DNA from: a virus
Virus record (IMG/VR): IMGVR_UViG_3300032086_000116
Span: 1 to 43,132 of that record
Direction: 5' to 3' (one strand)
Length of the DNA: 43,132 nucleotides
This document shows positions 24,349-31,085 of this stretch, piece after piece. Made by a program: the position numbers and the translations under genes. The first letter of the stretch is position 1. Each line of letters starts with the position of its first letter. The notes beneath the pieces are model-generated. The model searched no databases. It had not been told where the DNA came from and worked only from the letters and a program-made list of their open reading frames with translations.

Positions 24349-24509
24349 TTGAATCGTTTTTTTATTGGTGTGTAGATGTATTATATTTTATAGGTAATAC
24401 TACAGGTATAGGATACTATTGGGCAAACATTTTAATTTTTGTAATTTTACAACCTGCTTTAATTTTACTATTCCTGTTCTTATGGTTAAAAGAGAAAAGA
24501 AAACAATGA
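24345..24509 (+). CDS. small membrane protein, candidate holin, 54 aa
   Basis: A compact gene with ATGA overlaps at both ends (24345-24348 and 24506-24509). The 54 residues contain an N-terminal aromatic helix (SFFYWCVDVLYFIG) and a strong membrane segment (about 26-48, WANILIFVILQPALILLFLF), ending in a KEKRKQ tail. The sequence looks like a conserved marine phage protein. Being coupled to the lysozyme suggests a holin or lysis regulator. A second, 3TM holin candidate at 25197 makes the division of labour uncertain. Confidence 0.8.
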   Translation: MIESFFYWCVDVLYFIGNTTGIGYYWANILIFVILQPALILLFLFLWLKEKRKQ

Positions 24510-24958
24510 ATAAAGAATTATGTAAAGCTGAAATAAAGAGACACGAAGGTGAGGTTTTGGCAATCTATGAAGATAGTCTAGGCTATAAAACTCTTGGTGT
24601 TGGACATCTATGTCAACCTAGTGACCCTGAATATGGATGGGAAATCGGAACACCTGTGAGTCAAGAGGTAGTTGACATGTACTATGAGGAAGACTTTGAC
24701 AAGCATTATATGGAAGCTATCCACGTTTTAGGTGGAGACCATGTCTTTCAAAACTTGCCAGAGCCTATTCAAAGAGTCATAGTTAATATGTGTTTTAATC
24801 TAGGTGGCACAAGACTTGCAAAGTTTCGTAACATGATAGCAGCTTGTCAAAATCATGACTGGGAAGAAATGGCTAGACAAATGGAAGACAGTCGTTGGTT
24901 CCATCAAGTAGGTAGACGTAGTAAAGAGCTACAGGCTATAGTTCTTGAGCAAGTCTAA
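24506..24958 (+). CDS. endolysin, T4-type lysozyme (GH24)
   Basis: A 150-residue muramidase that cuts the peptidoglycan glycan chain. Catalytic Glu14 (RHEG), Asp23 (EDSLG) and Thr29 (YKTLGVGH) have the same spacing as Glu11-Asp20-Thr26 in T4 lysozyme, and the length is close. There is no signal peptide, so export would depend on a holin. The start at 24506 is supported by the ATGA overlap and by the position of the catalytic motif; upstream extensions would read through the small membrane gene. Confidence 0.96.
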   Translation: MNKELCKAEIKRHEGEVLAIYEDSLGYKTLGVGHLCQPSDPEYGWEIGTPVSQEVVDMYYEEDFDKHYMEAIHVLGGDHVFQNLPEPIQRVIVNMCFNLGGTRLAKFRNMIAACQNHDWEEMARQMEDSRWFHQVGRRSKELQAIVLEQV

Positions 24959-25200
24959 TGTTGCTCTACACAGAGAAACAAATGGACGTAGCCTATCGGA
25001 TAGATTGTAAAGCCCGTACAAAGTCTGGACTAGCTTGGATAAAGCGTGAAGAGTTTAGACCGGTGTACGAAACTTTAGTAGAGGCATTCATGGTTGCATA
25101 CAATGAGGACAACCCATTGGCAGATGATGTTCCTGATTATTTATTAGATGCGGTCAATGATTTATTGGAAGGTACGATAACAACAGAGGAAATACAATGA
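24958..25200 (+). CDS. small acidic protein in lysis block, 80 aa
   Basis: Starts in TAATG overlap with the lysozyme and ends in ATGA overlap with the holin. The 80 residues (YRIDCKARTKSGLAWIKREE, then FRPVYETLVEAFMVAY) are soluble and acidic at the C-terminus. I recall similar proteins in marine phage lysis regions, without known function. A regulator of lysis timing is possible from context only. Confidence 0.75.
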   Translation: MLLYTEKQMDVAYRIDCKARTKSGLAWIKREEFRPVYETLVEAFMVAYNEDNPLADDVPDYLLDAVNDLLEGTITTEEIQ

Positions 25201-25676
25201 AATTTGGAAACGTTTTAAAGAAAGTCGTAGGTGCAGTAGCTCCAACACTTGGCACCGCATTAGGCGGTCCTATGGGTGGCATGGCAGCTAATGTTATCTC
25301 TGAAGTACTTGGTGTACCAAACACGCCTAAAGCAATTGAACAGGCTGTACAAAGTGCTACACCTGAACAAATGTTAGAACTTAAAAAAGCTGAACAAGCT
25401 TTTGAAGTTCAGATGAAAGAGTTAGAAGTAGATGTATTTGCATTAGAAGTTCAAGATAAACAAGATGCACGTGGTAAGTTTAGTAGAGATTGGACTGCAA
25501 GAATCATGGGTATTGCTACCGTTGGTGGTTTTCTTGGTTACATATTCTTAGTAACGTTACAACCACCCGAGCAAAACTCTGAAGCATTAATCAACCTTGT
25601 ACTTGGTTATCTTGGTGGTTTAGCATCAGCAGTTATCTCATTCTACTTCGGAGCTTCTAACACACCGGATAAATGA
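25197..25676 (+). CDS. 3TM-type holin (GTA holin-like)
   Basis: A 159-residue protein with an N-terminal Gly/Ala-rich hydrophobic stretch (11-38), a charged middle, and two membrane segments at about 99-121 and 130-153 ending FYFGAS. The pattern of RDWTAR before a membrane helix and an SFYFGAS end is that of the GTA/3TM holin family. It would permeabilise the inner membrane and release the lysozyme. It stands two genes after the endolysin with a tight overlap. Confidence 0.82.
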   Translation: MKFGNVLKKVVGAVAPTLGTALGGPMGGMAANVISEVLGVPNTPKAIEQAVQSATPEQMLELKKAEQAFEVQMKELEVDVFALEVQDKQDARGKFSRDWTARIMGIATVGGFLGYIFLVTLQPPEQNSEALINLVLGYLGGLASAVISFYFGASNTPDK

Positions 25677-26047
25677 AATGGTTGATTACAGTTTTGTTAA
25701 GCTTACCTTGTCTCGCTGAATGGCAAGACTGGAACACAACTGATAAATTATTATTTAAAACAAAAATAGTTTTAGATATTATAGATGTTGGGCAAACTTA
25801 TAATGTTATTACCTGCCAAAATACAAACGAATATTGTAGATATTATGAAGTAAATCCTTTGTTTGGAAGCACTCCTGATATAGAAGATATTATTGCTGCA
25901 AAAATTGTTGGTAATTTTTTTATTTATAAAATACTGGATAAAGTACCAGCTGCTAGGCGAAAGGGACTATTACTTGCAAATACCATGGAGTTAGTTGTTA
26001 TTTATCATAATCATAACATTGGACTAGAATTTAAAATAAATTTATAA
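25673..26047 (+). CDS. signal-peptide membrane protein, 124 aa
   Basis: Residues 1-15 (MKWLITVLLSLPCLA) look like a cleavable signal peptide. The mature part has the motifs DVGQTYNVI, YYEVNPLFGS and a hydrophobic stretch near 72-86, and resembles small membrane proteins with a D...QT / E.NPL.G pattern (DUF5658-like, low certainty). Placed in the lysis block by ATGA overlap at 25673, but no lysis activity can be claimed. Confidence 0.7.
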   Translation: MKWLITVLLSLPCLAEWQDWNTTDKLLFKTKIVLDIIDVGQTYNVITCQNTNEYCRYYEVNPLFGSTPDIEDIIAAKIVGNFFIYKILDKVPAARRKGLLLANTMELVVIYHNHNIGLEFKINL

Positions 26048-26397
26048 TGAATGAATTTGTAAGTCTTATTAATGAAGTAGGCTTTCCCATTGCAGCAGCT
26101 CTAGGATTAGGGCTTTTTATTTGGAAGCTGATTAATCGTATCATTGATGGTATGGAGACCAAGCTTGAAACATTGGACGATAAAGTTCAGACTGCGTTAG
26201 ATACTATGGAAGAAAGAGTATCTACTAAGTTAGACAGTCAGTACGGTATTATCGTTAGTTTGATTGATAGAGTGAGAGCTATGGATAATCAAAGTATAAG
26301 ACAAGACGTACTTTTAAAAACTTTACTGGGCGTTCCCAACTTAATAGACCTTGAGAAGATTGCAAAAGCAGAAAGAGATGATCAAAGAAAAGACTAA
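26047..26397 (+). CDS. YvrJ-like anchored coiled-coil protein, 116 aa
   Basis: The N-terminus (VSLINEVGFPIAAALGLGLF) matches the pattern of YvrJ-family short membrane proteins, with one membrane segment at about 12-28. Residues 33-75 form a coiled coil with repeated Glu/Leu/Asp heptads. The charged C-terminus overlaps the csgF start by 20 bases. The family has no established function. An inner-membrane coil next to holin genes could be spanin-like or a holin partner, which is inference. Confidence 0.75.
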   Translation: MNEFVSLINEVGFPIAAALGLGLFIWKLINRIIDGMETKLETLDDKVQTALDTMEERVSTKLDSQYGIIVSLIDRVRAMDNQSIRQDVLLKTLLGVPNLIDLEKIAKAERDDQRKD

Positions 26398-26851
26398 TTG
26401 GAACTTAGTAATCTGTAGTTTAATATTGGTATTCAGTATTTTTTTTACTATGTTTGTAACTGCTGACGAGATTACACACAAGTTTAAGAGTCCATCGTTT
26501 AGTGGCATCAATACCTCTAGTCATTACTTGACCATAGAGAACCAAGAGTTTAACAGAAAGGCTGCAATCAAAGCAGAGATAAAAGCTTACCAAGAAGAAC
26601 TAGAAAGAGAGGCAAACAACACCACACTTGCAAGATTTATACGTAACTTAGAATCAAGAATCTATGCACAGCTTTCACGACAGTTAGTAGAAAACTTGTT
26701 TGGAGAAACACCAAGCAGCAGTGGTTTTCTAGAACTAGAAGGTAACAGTATAGAGTATAGTGTTGATGGAGATTTTATAACTTTAAAGATAACAGATGCT
26801 GAAGGAAATGAAACGATTATTACTTTGCCTATCGGCAGTTTTACTTTCTAG
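26378..26851 (+). CDS. csgF: CsgF-like curli assembly factor
   Basis: In bacteria, CsgF is secreted through CsgG, caps the pore and helps attach curlin. The 157-residue product starts at ATG 26378 with a hydrophobic signal-like segment (9-28). The mature start has FKSPSFSG (36-43), corresponding to the conserved F-x-N-P-x-F-G motif that inserts in the CsgG barrel. A later IRNLESRIYAQLSRQLVENL helix and a C-terminal SVDGDFITLKITDAEGNETI strand pair also follow the CsgF pattern. It overlaps csgG by 56 bases. A TTG at 26351 could add 9 residues but lacks support. Confidence 0.85.
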   Translation: MIKEKTNWNLVICSLILVFSIFFTMFVTADEITHKFKSPSFSGINTSSHYLTIENQEFNRKAAIKAEIKAYQEELEREANNTTLARFIRNLESRIYAQLSRQLVENLFGETPSSSGFLELEGNSIEYSVDGDFITLKITDAEGNETIITLPIGSFTF

Positions 26852-27617
26852 TTGTGCCACATGGCATTACGATGAGCTTTTAGAAAACGGAGGTATCGCA
26901 GATATTCGTCTGCAAGGTACCTCAATTCTAGATTTACAATCAGAAACTTTAAAAAACTTACCAGCTGCACAAGTCAAACCAGTAGTTGCAATTTATAAAG
27001 ACAGCTTTCAGGACTTGACAGGGCAGAGGAAAAGTAATAGTCAATTCGCACTGTTTAGTACAGCAGTGAGCCAAGCTCCAGAAGCGTTGGTCATTCGTGC
27101 TTTTAAACACGCAGCGAATGGGCAGTTCTTTAGAGTGGTTGAACGAGTAGGGTTAGATAGTCTGACAAAAGAAAGACAGATTATTAGGTCGACTCGGGAA
27201 GACTTTAATGAAGAACAAAAACTTAAGCCATTACTTTTTGCAGGAGTATTGGTTCAAGGCGGTGTGATAAGTTATGACACCAATTTAAAGTCAGGCGGTA
27301 ACGGTGCTAGATATTTAGGCATAGGTGCTAGTCGTCAATACAGAGAAGATACTGTCACTATATCCATGCGATTAGTATCTATCTCTACAGGGGAAGTATT
27401 GATGGAAGTATTGGTTGCTAAAACTATTTTATCTATCGGCATATCGCAAGACTTGTTCCGTTTTATTGAAGCAGGTTCAGAACTTGTAGAGATAGAAAGC
27501 GGAGCAGCACAAAACGAAAGCGTGTCTATAGCTTTGCAAAAGGCAATAGAGACAGGGGTATTACAAATAATTGAAACAGGAATCGAGAGGGGATACTGGA
27601 AATATGAAACAAATTAA
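26796..27617 (+). CDS. csgG: CsgG curli secretion channel lipoprotein
   Basis: CsgG forms a nonameric outer-membrane channel for curli subunits. A lipoprotein signal ends in LSSC (Cys20). The core carries strong family signatures: VVAIYK and TGQRK (63-79), LTKERQIIRSTRE (123-135), SYDTNLKSGGNGARYLGIGA (159-178), SISTGEVL (195-202), SKTI-like AKTI (208-211), FRFIEA (221-226) and AIETGV (250-255). The constriction region (about 80-91) reads SNSQFALFSTAV, one residue longer than in E. coli and without its Tyr/Asn pair, while Phe87 is kept. It stops shortly after the core, without the longer C-terminal tail. ATG 26808 is an alternative start. Confidence 0.95.
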   Translation: MLKEMKRLLLCLSAVLLSSCATWHYDELLENGGIADIRLQGTSILDLQSETLKNLPAAQVKPVVAIYKDSFQDLTGQRKSNSQFALFSTAVSQAPEALVIRAFKHAANGQFFRVVERVGLDSLTKERQIIRSTREDFNEEQKLKPLLFAGVLVQGGVISYDTNLKSGGNGARYLGIGASRQYREDTVTISMRLVSISTGEVLMEVLVAKTILSIGISQDLFRFIEAGSELVEIESGAAQNESVSIALQKAIETGVLQIIETGIERGYWKYETN

Positions 27618-28305
27618 ATTACTTTTATTATTACCAATGTTGGCGTTGGCTGATAATGAAATCTATGTAAATCAATCCGGTGCTACTGCGAACATAGACT
27701 TAGAACAGCTAGGTTCAAGTAACATTATTGGTGGACTAGATGCAGTGTCAGGAACTATGACAGCGTTGGACTTAGACGGAGCAACACTAACTTTAGATAT
27801 CAATCAGATTGGAGACTTTAACAAGTTTCTAGGTGATATGTGGGCTGATACATTAACAGGTTTTTTTGAGTTTGATGGAGATAGCAACGAGTTTGAAATA
27901 CAAGTTGACCCTACAAATACTTATGGTGCTGATAGCAGTGACCTCAACGTAGATGTTACAGGTTCATCAAATACATTTGAATTAAACGTAGCTACAGCAG
28001 ACTTGGCAAGTGCTTTAGACCTTGACTGGACCATTAACGGTAGCAGCAACTCATTGACATTTGATATTGATTATGATTCAGCAACTAACTACGTCAACAT
28101 AGATGGAGACAGCAACACTGTAACGTTTGATGGAGACGGATATGCTAACGGATATTTTTATTTAGACCAAGACGGAAACTCTAGAACATTTAATATACAA
28201 CAACAAAGTACATTGGCAAGTGACTGGCTTAAGCTTGAAACAACTGGCAATGGTGGTACTGTTTGTGTCATTCAAAATGACTCAGGCACCACTACAAGCT
28301 GCTGA
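27604..28305 (+). CDS. secreted curlin-repeat protein
   Basis: A 233-residue protein starting at ATG 27604, overlapping csgG by 14 bases. Signal peptide MKQIKLLLLLPMLALA with cleavage near 16. The mature protein is acidic and made of strand-turn-strand repeats with a [D/S]-x-N turn: IYVNQSGATANIDLEQLGSS (20-39) is close to the curlin consensus, and INQIGDFN (66-73), DGDSNEFEIQV (91-101), TGSSNTFELNV (119-129), NGSSNSLTFDI (145-155) and DGDSNTVTFDG (167-177) follow at about 21-28-residue spacing. Two Cys (221, 233) near the end are unusual for curlins. Probably the CsgG substrate; amyloid formation is inferred. Confidence 0.8.
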   Translation: MKQIKLLLLLPMLALADNEIYVNQSGATANIDLEQLGSSNIIGGLDAVSGTMTALDLDGATLTLDINQIGDFNKFLGDMWADTLTGFFEFDGDSNEFEIQVDPTNTYGADSSDLNVDVTGSSNTFELNVATADLASALDLDWTINGSSNSLTFDIDYDSATNYVNIDGDSNTVTFDGDGYANGYFYLDQDGNSRTFNIQQQSTLASDWLKLETTGNGGTVCVIQNDSGTTTSC

Positions 28306-29326
28306 TATAGGTTCGATAACCGAAGTCAAAGGAGCAGGACAAGTTGTTCGTGACGATACGTTCCCGGCTGCATTACAGTTTGGTATAGAGAGTTACGATA
28401 ACGTCAAGACAGCAAACGGTAGGGTTGGAATTACCTTTCTTGACGATAGTAAAGTTAGACTAACAGAACACTCAGAGCTTATTATAGATGAGTTTATTTA
28501 TGACCCCAACCCCTCGAAGTCGAAAATGGCATTGCAGTTTGCTAGTGGTACTGCAAGATTCATCACTGGCAAACTTGCAACCATTGATAAAGAGAACATA
28601 TCTATAAAGACTCCAAGTGCCACTATAGGAATACGTGGTACAGATTTTACAGTTACTGTAGATGAACTTGGAAGAAGCTTGGTAATATTGTTACCGGATG
28701 AATTTGGTAACGCTAGTGGTGAGATAGTTGTCAACACTGCTATAGGACAGGCAGTATTGAATCAGCCTTACCAAGCTACCAGTGTATCGGTCTTTGAAAG
28801 TAAGCCAAGTAAGCCGGTTATCTTAGACATTACACTGGAGCTTATTGATAACATGTTGATTGTGCAACCTCCTGAACAGGTTGTAACAGAAACAGAAAAT
28901 GTTACAGAGCAGAAGAAGAGTATACTGGACGTAGACTTTTTAGAGTTTGATGAACTTGAACAAGACTATCTAGCAGAAGACAATTTAGAATTTAATGAGC
29001 TAGATATTAATTATCTTGATGTTAATTTTTTAGAAGACTTACTTGACATCATAGAAGAAGTAGACCAGCTGGAAAGTGAACAGCTTGGTCAAGTCTCAGA
29101 AACTGATATCAAAGGCACAGAGTTTGGCTTTGATGGTGAAACACAAATAAATACATTTATAACCGATGGAATGCTAACCGTTCTTAGAAGTGTACAAGAT
29201 ACGGTAAGACTAGAGATAGATAGCTCCGGTTCTTACACTGTTCTTTTAGTACAAGACGGAAAGAGTACACAGATTGTTATCAACGGTGGTAGTTCATCTA
29301 CAATTAAAATTAAACAGAGCAGCTAA
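28220..29326 (+). CDS. secreted FecR-domain protein with acidic repeats
   Basis: A 368-residue product from a GTG at 28220, which provides a signal peptide (Lys7, hydrophobic 9-18, cleavage near QAA-D); ATGs at 28250 and 28277 would shorten or remove it. A FecR domain spans about 30-165, with NVKTANGRVGITFLDDSKVR and TPSATIGIRGTDF (131-143). A Asp/Glu/Leu/Asn-rich repeat region (about 235-285) follows, then a second degenerate FecR-like piece (TDIKGTEF, 295-302) and a beta-rich end. The gene overlaps the curlin gene by 86 bases in another frame. FecR domains are periplasmic sensing or ligand modules. A link to the following CHASE2 cyclase is suggested by adjacency. Confidence 0.85.
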   Translation: MTGLSLKQLAMVVLFVSFKMTQAPLQAADIGSITEVKGAGQVVRDDTFPAALQFGIESYDNVKTANGRVGITFLDDSKVRLTEHSELIIDEFIYDPNPSKSKMALQFASGTARFITGKLATIDKENISIKTPSATIGIRGTDFTVTVDELGRSLVILLPDEFGNASGEIVVNTAIGQAVLNQPYQATSVSVFESKPSKPVILDITLELIDNMLIVQPPEQVVTETENVTEQKKSILDVDFLEFDELEQDYLAEDNLEFNELDINYLDVNFLEDLLDIIEEVDQLESEQLGQVSETDIKGTEFGFDGETQINTFITDGMLTVLRSVQDTVRLEIDSSGSYTVLLVQDGKSTQIVINGGSSSTIKIKQSS

Positions 29327-31074
29327 TGAAATGGGCAACACTTCTTATCGGCATCCTTACGCTACCCTTGTTGTTCAATGCTGTACCTTTAGAAATATTA
29401 CGACTTAAAACATTTGACACGTTTGTCAAGACTCCTGAACCTACAGGATATTTTTCTATTCTTAATATCACAGAAGAAGATATAGATAAAGAAGGTGGTT
29501 ATCCTTTACCACGTCAAACACTTGCAAAGATTCACAACACTTTACTAGAGAACGGTGCCCTAGGCGTTGGCTGGGTTGTATTGTTTCCACATCCTGACAG
29601 ACTAGGTGGAGACACAGAGTTTGCACAAGCTTTACAAAGTTCTCCAAGTGTCATAGCAATGCCTGAAGTTCCCAATAATTTATATCCTGAAACACACGGA
29701 ACTGTCATACTCGGAGAAGATGTCATACTTCCACAGGCACAAGGTTTCTTAAATAATATACCAATACTCAAGCAGTCAGCTACTCAAGGTGCAGTCTCTG
29801 TTCCTGTTGACGTTGATAATTTGGTAAGACAAATTCCTTTACTTCAACAAATTCCTGATGGGTGGGTAGCCTCATTCGGTACTCAAGTCTTAAAAATTTT
29901 AGGAGGTGGTTCAACGTATCAAATTAAAACAAACATAAACGGTATTGAACAGATACGAGTACGTGGGCTACCTCCCATTGCTACAGATAGTCTTGGTCGT
30001 AAGTGGATATCTTGGGTGGATACACCTGAGACTACGTTACAAGAGCTTGATGTGGCTGGTAAGTTTGTGTTCGTAGGTTTTACAGCTAAAGGAATTATGC
30101 AACAAGTTGCAACTCCAAAAGGTTTGTTAGAGCCTCATAAAATTCAAGCAGCACTAGCAGAAAGTATCCTGTTAGATACACCAAAAATACCTGACTATAG
30201 ATTGTTTGTAGAACTATTAATATTATGCCTCTCTGGTCTCGCTGTAGCCTCTGTAATCAACGCTTTTGGTATCACCTGGGGATTGGTATTGGCAGGAGTT
30301 TCAATGGCTTCTGTGGCTTATGGTGGATATGCTTTAATTCAAGCAAATATTCTTATAGATGTGACATGGTCATTACTATCTATGTTAGTTGTATCTACTC
30401 AGCAATTCTATTTAAACTTTAGAAAGCAGTACAAGCTTAGACAACAGATTAAGAAACAATTTGAACACTATCTTGACCCACGACAAGTCAAACAACTCCA
30501 GAAACATCCAGAGCTTTTGAAGTTAGGAGGAGTTCGTAGAAGATGTACTCTTTTATTTACAGACGTTAGAGGCTTTACAAGTTTGTCAGAACGTTTAGAG
30601 CCTGAACAAGTTACAGAGATTATGAACAAAGCATTGACGATTCAATCGGATGCTGTAAAGAAACATGGTGGAATGGTAGATAAATATATTGGTGATGCTA
30701 TGATGGCTATCTTCAATGCACCTATAGATCAAGAAGAACACGAAGAGAAAGCTGTGTTAGCTGCATTAGATATCATGCGTGGGATGAACGAAGCAGACAT
30801 TGGGGTAACGATTGGTATAGGAGTCAACACCGGAGATGCAGTCGTAGGAAACATGGGAAGTGAGACAAGGTTTGATTACACTGCGATAGGTGATGCAGTA
30901 AACCTTGCAGCTAGGTTAGAGAGTTCAACTAAAGAAGTTGGACAAGACTTAGTAATCGGGCATGAGACTGCCAAGAATATTACTCTACCTCTGATAGAGC
31001 TTGAACCTATCTTTGTAAAGGGAAAAGAAAAACCTGTAAAAATATTTACTATAAGTCTTGACAAATTGCTGTAG
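29326..31074 (+). CDS. CHASE2-domain class III adenylate cyclase
   Basis: Predicted inner-membrane sensor that makes cAMP. Order: N-terminal membrane segment (about 3-20), periplasmic CHASE2 domain (about 25-285), three membrane segments (about 293-313, 315-338, 343-365), then a cytoplasmic cyclase domain (about 400-580). Metal ligands are Asp413 (FTDVRGFT) and Asp457 (KYIGDAMM). Lys453 and Thr519 occupy the adenine-specifying positions (a Lys/Thr pair known from some bacterial enzymes), and Asn526 and Arg530 are the transition-state residues. All key residues are present, so the enzyme should be active. It starts in a TAATG overlap with the FecR gene. A promoter for hsp20 lies in its last codons. 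Confidence 0.93.
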   Translation: MKWATLLIGILTLPLLFNAVPLEILRLKTFDTFVKTPEPTGYFSILNITEEDIDKEGGYPLPRQTLAKIHNTLLENGALGVGWVVLFPHPDRLGGDTEFAQALQSSPSVIAMPEVPNNLYPETHGTVILGEDVILPQAQGFLNNIPILKQSATQGAVSVPVDVDNLVRQIPLLQQIPDGWVASFGTQVLKILGGGSTYQIKTNINGIEQIRVRGLPPIATDSLGRKWISWVDTPETTLQELDVAGKFVFVGFTAKGIMQQVATPKGLLEPHKIQAALAESILLDTPKIPDYRLFVELLILCLSGLAVASVINAFGITWGLVLAGVSMASVAYGGYALIQANILIDVTWSLLSMLVVSTQQFYLNFRKQYKLRQQIKKQFEHYLDPRQVKQLQKHPELLKLGGVRRRCTLLFTDVRGFTSLSERLEPEQVTEIMNKALTIQSDAVKKHGGMVDKYIGDAMMAIFNAPIDQEEHEEKAVLAALDIMRGMNEADIGVTIGIGVNTGDAVVGNMGSETRFDYTAIGDAVNLAARLESSTKEVGQDLVIGHETAKNITLPLIELEPIFVKGKEKPVKIFTISLDKLL

Positions 31075-31085
31075 GACATTATAAT
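31058..31085 (+). promoter_or_regulatory. consensus sigma70 promoter for hsp20
   Basis: TTGACA at 31058-31063, 16-bp spacer, TATAAT at 31080-31085; the -35 lies in the final codons of the cyclase gene. The expected start is near 31092, immediately before the hairpin at 31093. It would let hsp20 be transcribed independently of the late operon by the vegetative sigma factor. Confidence 0.75.

Follow-up and report, generated by a model that had tools for sequence, protein, structure and literature searches.

A probable degenerate curlin within a type VIII secretion cassette of a phage related to HTVC103P

Genomic context and organization of the cassette

We analysed a marine phage record of 43,132 bases (IMG/VR record IMGVR_UViG_3300032086_000116; hereafter the window), with a G+C content of 0.371 and no terminal repeat over its whole length. 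The nearest relatives of its terminase, portal and primase belong to the cultured Pelagibacter phages HTVC103P, HTVC104P and HTVC115P, with up to 65.9%, 59.7% and 48.6% identity, respectively, and not to HTVC023P or HTVC027P, which leaves the phage outside the HTVC023P type. The HTVC103P group has been described with more distant relatives whose hosts are unknown (PMC8528129), so that affinity to these phages does not fix the host of the present one; curli are not mentioned in the portion of that article accessible to us. All features considered here lie on the + strand:

24419..24958, + strand: phage lysozyme, upstream neighbour of the cassette (Pfam Phage_lysozyme, E 4.7e-8)
25197..25676, + strand: p8, small membrane protein whose gene travels with the lysozyme gene (phrog_1544, E 2.4e-27)
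26047..26397, + strand: p7, 116 aa, one transmembrane segment plus a helix, constant first gene of the cassette, apparently holin-like
26378..26851, + strand: csgF (Pfam CsgF, E 1.2e-15)
26808..27617, + strand: csgG, outer-membrane curli secretion channel (Pfam CsgG, E 3.5e-49; lipobox LSSC)
27604..28305, + strand: focal gene, 233 aa, very probable diverged curlin (CsgA/B-like; open reading frame, profile chain, model, fold matches, dN/dS)
27604..27651, + strand: predicted Sec signal peptide of the focal protein, residues 1-16 (read from sequence)
27655..27723, + strand: first curlin repeat, residues 18-40 (published core motif; Q24 and Q35 in 43 of 43 relatives)
28264..28302, + strand: C-terminal cysteine pair C221 and C233 (conserved in relatives)
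28250..29326, + strand: exported FecR-domain protein bearing an additional beta domain at its C-terminus (Pfam FecR, E 2.1e-11)
29234..29323, + strand: C-terminus of the FecR protein, residues 329-358, suggestive of curlin-like half repeats (motif counts)
29326..31074, + strand: CHASE2 sensor with class III adenylate cyclase (Pfam CHASE2, E 1.5e-29; Guanylate_cyc, E 6.7e-20)

The cassette runs in the order p7, csgF, csgG, curlin, fecR and CHASE2-adenylate cyclase, an arrangement nearly fixed in 142 sequences (140 fetched loci, the re-fetched region of the window and the window itself, some of the loci overlapping). Among 77 unique loci, fecR directly followed the curlin gene in 64 of 65 cases, the cyclase came next in 52 of 53, and p7 lay upstream of csgG in all 54 with room for it. 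A lysozyme gene was found near the cassette in 15 of the 19 loci with room on both sides, and a curlin gene in 64 of 66 CsgG-anchored viral loci, the remaining two ending at a contig edge. With a CsgG lipoprotein channel, 45.5% identical to CsgG of HTVC008M, and CsgF adjoining the curlin, the locus has the composition of a type VIII secretion system. CsgE, CsgC and CsgD, which Alphaproteobacteria are reported to lack (PMC3521004), had no match among the ten proteins scanned with Pfam, and the window holds one curlin and no separate nucleator. From the lysozyme gene (24419) to the end of the cyclase gene (31074), genes overlap by 1 to 56 bases when the starts chosen here for csgF, csgG and fecR are used, a layout that suggests a single late transcript.

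Relatives of p7 measure about 90-120 residues with one membrane segment, and their gene is sometimes doubled. All 24 members matched phrog_18771 and seven of them the holin family phrog_4898 (best E 1.4e-5); no histidine kinase (HisKA/HATPase) stood among the 25 listed of 28 Pfam families matched by these 24 members at E <= 1. The gene before csgF was called a histidine kinase by Wittmers et al. 2022 (PMC9599517); judged by its position, that gene would be p7, which from its sequence looks holin-like rather than kinase-like. We also considered p7 as a spanin and abandoned the idea, since its match to a PHROG spanin had an E-value of 0.099 and the charges on either side of its membrane segment suggest an N-out topology.

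Sequence features and homology of the focal protein

The focal gene is an open reading frame of 233 codons, and its product carries the signal peptide (N-terminal MKQIKLLLLLPMLALA, mature start DNEIY, read from sequence), the strand-turn-strand units, the strong acidity (net charge -32 across 216 residues) and the two terminal cysteines (C221 and C233) that the earlier note had attributed to a protein of this length. The first repeat, which had been placed near the curlin consensus, proved to be an exact curlin repeat, composed of N18-E-I-Y-V-N-Q24, an S-G-A-T arc, A29-N-I-D-L-E-Q35 and an L-G-S-S-N40 arc. It fits the curlin core motif N-x-psi-x-psi-x-Q with X-G-X-X arcs defined by Sleutel et al. 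2023 (PMC10192328), with Ala replacing Asn in its second half. In composition-preserving shuffles, G-x-x-N occurred 2.12 times on average against seven in the protein (P 0.00175), and the four G-x-x-N spacings falling within 18-32 residues were likewise in excess (P 0.00035). Of the seven or so repeats with G-[DS]-S-N turns described at first, the repeats themselves stand, their count is revised to about eight rungs, and the turns with the sequence G-[DS]-S-N number exactly five. The spacing, said to shorten from 28 to 21 residues along the chain, is instead irregular (33, 22, 28, 26, 22 and 23 residues between turn glycines 37, 70, 92, 120, 146, 168 and 191). The dN/dS of the gene against three relatives (L002-L004) was 0.131-0.155, near the 0.092-0.113 of csgG, and on these ratios the curlin gene is under purifying selection.

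Neither the focal protein nor any other part of the record matched Pfam Curlin_rpt (PF07012), a model reported to miss 47 of 401 CsgA/B proteins (PMC3521004), and 20 of 43 relatives reached it only below threshold (best E 0.0093). A single-sequence PHROGs search of the focal protein and a search of PDB sequences with the family profile also returned no curlin. Since the Curlin_rpt cut-off failed, we file the protein as a diverged curlin homologue and not as a member of Pfam Curlin_rpt.

Curlins were nevertheless reached from the focal family by a chain of two profile comparisons. Relatives of the focal protein are encoded by 207 viral-contig stretches, of which the best 80 were kept; the focal family aligned with the curlins of the myophages HTVC008M and Melnitz at E 2e-15, and with their first curlins at 1e-17. 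The myophage curlins aligned in turn with bacterial curlins at E 1.2e-9, the bacterial profile combining seven curlins from four alphaproteobacterial loci with CsgA and CsgB of E. coli. All reversed controls of these comparisons gave E 0.3 or worse. Aligned directly with hhalign, the focal family and the bacterial curlins matched weakly (33%, E 4.6e-4). Curlin_rpt was passed by the Melnitz orthologue located at the same place in its cassette (8.6e-6, four stretches) and by the second of the two HTVC008M curlins (5.2e-8), but not by the first (E 1.1). In addition, three alphaproteobacterial curlins begin alike after the signal peptide (ADNNYAYIDQ, ADSNSAYVDQ and ADSNAVYIEQ), to be compared with ADNEIYVNQ in the focal protein. 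The outcome of the curlin-repeat search suggested by the earlier note is divided, the profile comparison reaching curlins and the single sequence lacking a Curlin_rpt match. In substance, the claim of a diverged curlin encoded by a phage is supported by the profile chain together with the predicted beta-solenoid, and we consider the focal protein to be very probably a degenerate curlin.

Predicted fold

Structure prediction, the check set beforehand for the fold, yielded a beta-solenoid. The AlphaFold2 model, built from 43 sequences, is all-beta with strand-arc-strand pairs (mean pLDDT 82.3, pTM 0.78) and is predicted to form an eight-rung two-sheet solenoid; the curlin (CsgA/CsgB) fold is a left-handed two-sheet beta-solenoid. 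Among 338 viral fold matches in BFVD at E <= 10, the top four are named 'Curlin associated', and these phage matches have a probability of 1.00 and TM values up to 0.76/0.79. Foldseek retained no PDB chain at E <= 1e-3, and realignment against PDB structures brought up beta-helices of a generic kind, among them SufB/SufD (best Z 16.9), from a list that follows Foldseek's own ranking, so that the missing curli fibre structures are uninformative.

Glutamines of the end rungs and the cysteine pair

Across 83 unique relatives, the core glutamines Q24 and Q35 are invariant and Q68 is kept in 80, and toward the C-terminus Q189 is found in 66 (His in the other 17), Q200 in all 83 and Q224 in 81 of 81. 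Positions 90, 118, 144 and 166 are never Gln in these 83 relatives and are mostly Phe, Val or Ile, with Ala or Thr at position 118 in 11 of them. Four middle rungs are thus devoid of the core Gln, core-facing Gln being restricted to the end rungs; the curlin core motif, complete in the first repeat, extends along part of the chain only, a situation shared with the published degenerate curlins (PMC10192328), and the G and N of most turns are invariant. Because Gln is kept at the end rungs and lost in the middle, the ends are curlin-like and the middle resembles an ordinary beta-helix, and this alignment pattern suggests that subunits could dock end to end via their end rungs. In E. coli CsgA, aggregation is slowed by gatekeeper Asp and Gly residues of the inner repeats (PMC9900396), and the likeness of the focal middle rungs to these repeats is suggestive. 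Among the relatives examined (83), those uncut by a contig end all carry C221 (81/81) and C233 (80/80), and the second myophage curlins, as well as one alphaproteobacterial curlin, also have cysteine pairs near the C-terminus.

The FecR protein and the CHASE2-cyclase

The structural model of the FecR protein is weak (mean pLDDT 65). Among the matches listed from 289 genomes of the class, those of cellular FecR proteins extend no further than position 230 of 367, and only two contigs, both with this cassette, gave matches reaching the end. The motif [IVL]x[IVL]xQ lies near the end of 73 of 79 unique FecR proteins, the six misses all being cut by contig ends, compared with 18 of 739 background open reading frames and none of 12 cellular FecR ends (a control that left out 17 further frames running off their locus). 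Both motifs were present at 49 of 73 FecR ends, against one of 739 in the background, and shuffles of FecR ends gave P <= 0.05 in 14 of 18 rows, which are related and whose numbers are not independent. By hhalign, the FecR C-terminus did not significantly match curlin (E 0.014, against 0.019 for one reversed control). These motif counts make a curlin-like FecR C-terminus suggestive only, and a literature search judged by titles gave no report of such ends. Within about 9 kb of five alphaproteobacterial csg loci, phage profiles matched neither FecR nor the cyclase.

The cyclase of the window retains the class III catalytic residues, and the catalytic pattern, whose residues we take to be those of class III cyclases, fits 70 of 79 unique relatives. 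Class III cyclases were detected in two of 60 SAR11-family genomes, both on cassette contigs, and cNMP-binding domains also in two of 60, counts that apply to genomes which may be incomplete and to a family which may not be that of the host. A cAMP- or cNMP-binding domain was sought in the phage record and not found. The cyclase is therefore a puzzle, nearly all sampled SAR11-family genomes being without a cAMP receptor. The FecR protein and the CHASE2-cyclase probably act as reporters of the envelope or of the curlin. More speculatively, and in our view rather unlikely, FecR may be a curlin-tipped sensor whose C-terminal rungs would dock on, cap or nucleate the fibre, driving the CHASE2 cyclase in cells mostly devoid of their own class III cyclase and cNMP receptor; if true, a complete cAMP circuit that senses the fibre, and not the fibre alone, would arrive with the phage. 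A perfect sigma-70 consensus (TTGACA-16-TATAAT; window 31058-31085, + strand) lies at the end of the cyclase gene, just 5' of an Hsp20 gene.

Proposed function and alternative explanations

The explanation that we favour, and hold to be quite probable, is that of a degenerate curlin exported as the subunit of a phage-encoded type VIII secretion cassette. For secretion, fibre formation and purpose, we infer the following course. The curlin gene would be expressed late, as its place in the overlapping chain from lysozyme to cyclase indicates; its product would cross the inner membrane by Sec, thread unfolded through the CsgG-CsgF pore and fold outside. There, the end rungs with their curlin Gln would dock subunits end to end, giving a thin acidic fibre on the infected cell, the middle rungs having presumably turned into an ordinary hydrophobic core. 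Fibre formation seems to us somewhat likely. Around the dying cell, such a fibre would most likely mediate adhesion or aggregation, involving siblings, debris or virions, or else mask the cell surface, aggregation as the purpose being a tentative proposal. An adhesive fibre is suited by the PA14 domain borne by the second curlin of HTVC008M. Against a fibre, polymerisation could be impeded by the strongly negative charge and by the cysteine pair, and E. coli CsgA stayed soluble when a disulfide was engineered into it (PMC7264389); against aggregation, the accessible text of Buchholz et al. (PMC9004378) reports no clumping with Melnitz.

A protein secreted via CsgG-CsgF might also stay monomeric, or remain a short disulfide-capped beta-solenoid, and coat or block the surface (superinfection exclusion, receptor masking). 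The hydrophobic middle rungs and the charge of -32 do look like those of a stable soluble solenoid, the invariant cysteine pair could cap its C-terminal end, and the single curlin of the window comes without a separate nucleator. However, the rungs at the two ends, by which subunits would dock, both conserve Gln, and the cassette has retained CsgF, which serves fibre nucleation in E. coli, so that we judge this outcome unlikely. The published lysis-pore hypothesis for Melnitz (Buchholz et al., PMC9004378) would turn the cassette into lysis machinery, with CsgG-CsgF opening the outer membrane at lysis and the curlin gating or plugging the pore. In its favour are the frequent proximity of a lysozyme gene (15 of the 19 loci counted above), the holin-like matches of p7 (7/24 members) and the gene overlaps from lysozyme through cyclase, but its premise of a pore without substrate fails, as Melnitz has two proteins over the Pfam curlin cut-off; moreover, the curlin is present in 64 of 66 CsgG-anchored loci, and the HTVC008M cassette is not beside annotated lysis genes. 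We find this hypothesis improbable. Still far less credible is a phage beta-helix of generic type, such as a virion adhesin, with GxxN turns made curlin-like by convergence: the unrelated beta-helices among the best solved-structure realignments and the missing Pfam match would agree with it, yet the signal peptide, the fixed place between csgG and fecR, the profile homology with clean reversed controls and the curlin annotation of the top four viral fold matches all argue against it.

For the exported degenerate curlin, its inseparability from the channel (64/66), the presumed docking ends that have been kept and the purifying selection argue for a real secreted substrate. On the possible adaptation to the neighbouring CsgG raised in the earlier note, the analysis bears through this linkage. 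Fibre formation is directly testable with one small protein.

Comparison with known systems

Phage csg genes were reported in 2020 (Zaragoza-Solas 2020; PMC7029224) and later together with curlins, FecR and adenylate cyclase (Wittmers et al. 2022; PMC9599517). The curli cassette of marine phages is already published (Wittmers 2022; Zaragoza-Solas 2020; Buchholz 2022), a fact of which the earlier note had no knowledge, and the roles put forward for it, sibling capture, import pore and lysis pore, conflict. With the cassette of HTVC023P-type podo- and myo-pelagiphages (PMC9599517), the present one shares CsgF, CsgG, a CsgA/B-like protein, FecR and the cyclase, as well as their order; by contrast with that type, the phage is nearest HTVC103P, HTVC104P and HTVC115P (terminase 65.9%) and encodes a single curlin. 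The curlins of HTVC008M and Melnitz share the cassette position of the focal gene, to which they are related by tblastn at 31.5% (E 2e-6) and 23.7% (E 0.03), respectively. Each of these phages has a pair of curlins, of which the second exceeds the Pfam cut-off, whereas the focal phage carries one, and their first curlins are without its C-terminal cysteine pair. The available text of PMC9004378 describes Melnitz as lacking csgA and csgB, but two of its proteins pass the curlin cut-off and its record names them curlin associated repeat proteins. Compared with bacterial CsgA/CsgB of the degenerate class (Sleutel et al. 2023, PMC10192328), the focal protein has in common the core motif of the first repeat, the X-G-X-X arcs, the solenoid fold and the mature N-terminus, and differs by its four middle rungs without core Gln, its strong acidity, its longer arcs and its escape from Pfam Curlin_rpt.

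Among the articles consulted, none describes the cassette for phages related to HTVC103P, and the accessible portion of PMC8528129 contains no such description either. New elements are the HTVC103P-related carrier, the end-rung Gln pattern, the curlin-like FecR C-terminus (suggestive only), the upstream gene of holin-like rather than histidine-kinase appearance, and the pairing of a cyclase with an almost complete lack of cAMP receptors among the SAR11-family genomes sampled.

In the second curlin of HTVC008M (L139:7708-9033), the PA14 domain forms an N-terminal fusion (Pfam E 2.7e-6; RsgI3 matched among PDB sequences at E 6.9e-6), which suggests a fibre displaying a binding domain.

Cassette genes in cellular genomes and other records

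CsgF was absent from 58 of 60 SAR11-family genomes, the two matches being contigs with the same phage cassette; this fits the earlier statement that the gene is not a copy of a host gene, provided that the host belongs to the SAR11 family. A CsgG search of genome contigs returned eight loci, seven of which contain multiple cassette genes and resemble phage contigs that were binned into metagenome-assembled genomes; the eighth (L148) holds a partial csgG only. One contig of a SAR11-family genome (L199, G429 contig 11) bears p7 twice, csgF, csgG and the curlin gene, plus a cyclase, and is either a binned phage contig or a copy integrated into the genome. At three loci (L131, L135 and L100), cassette genes are seemingly split into several open frames, probably through sequencing errors or decay. 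Finally, record OR851715.1 (1,499 bases, under the name Salmonella phage S.Kent 1-2-1) contains a CsgG gene 43% identical to that of the window.
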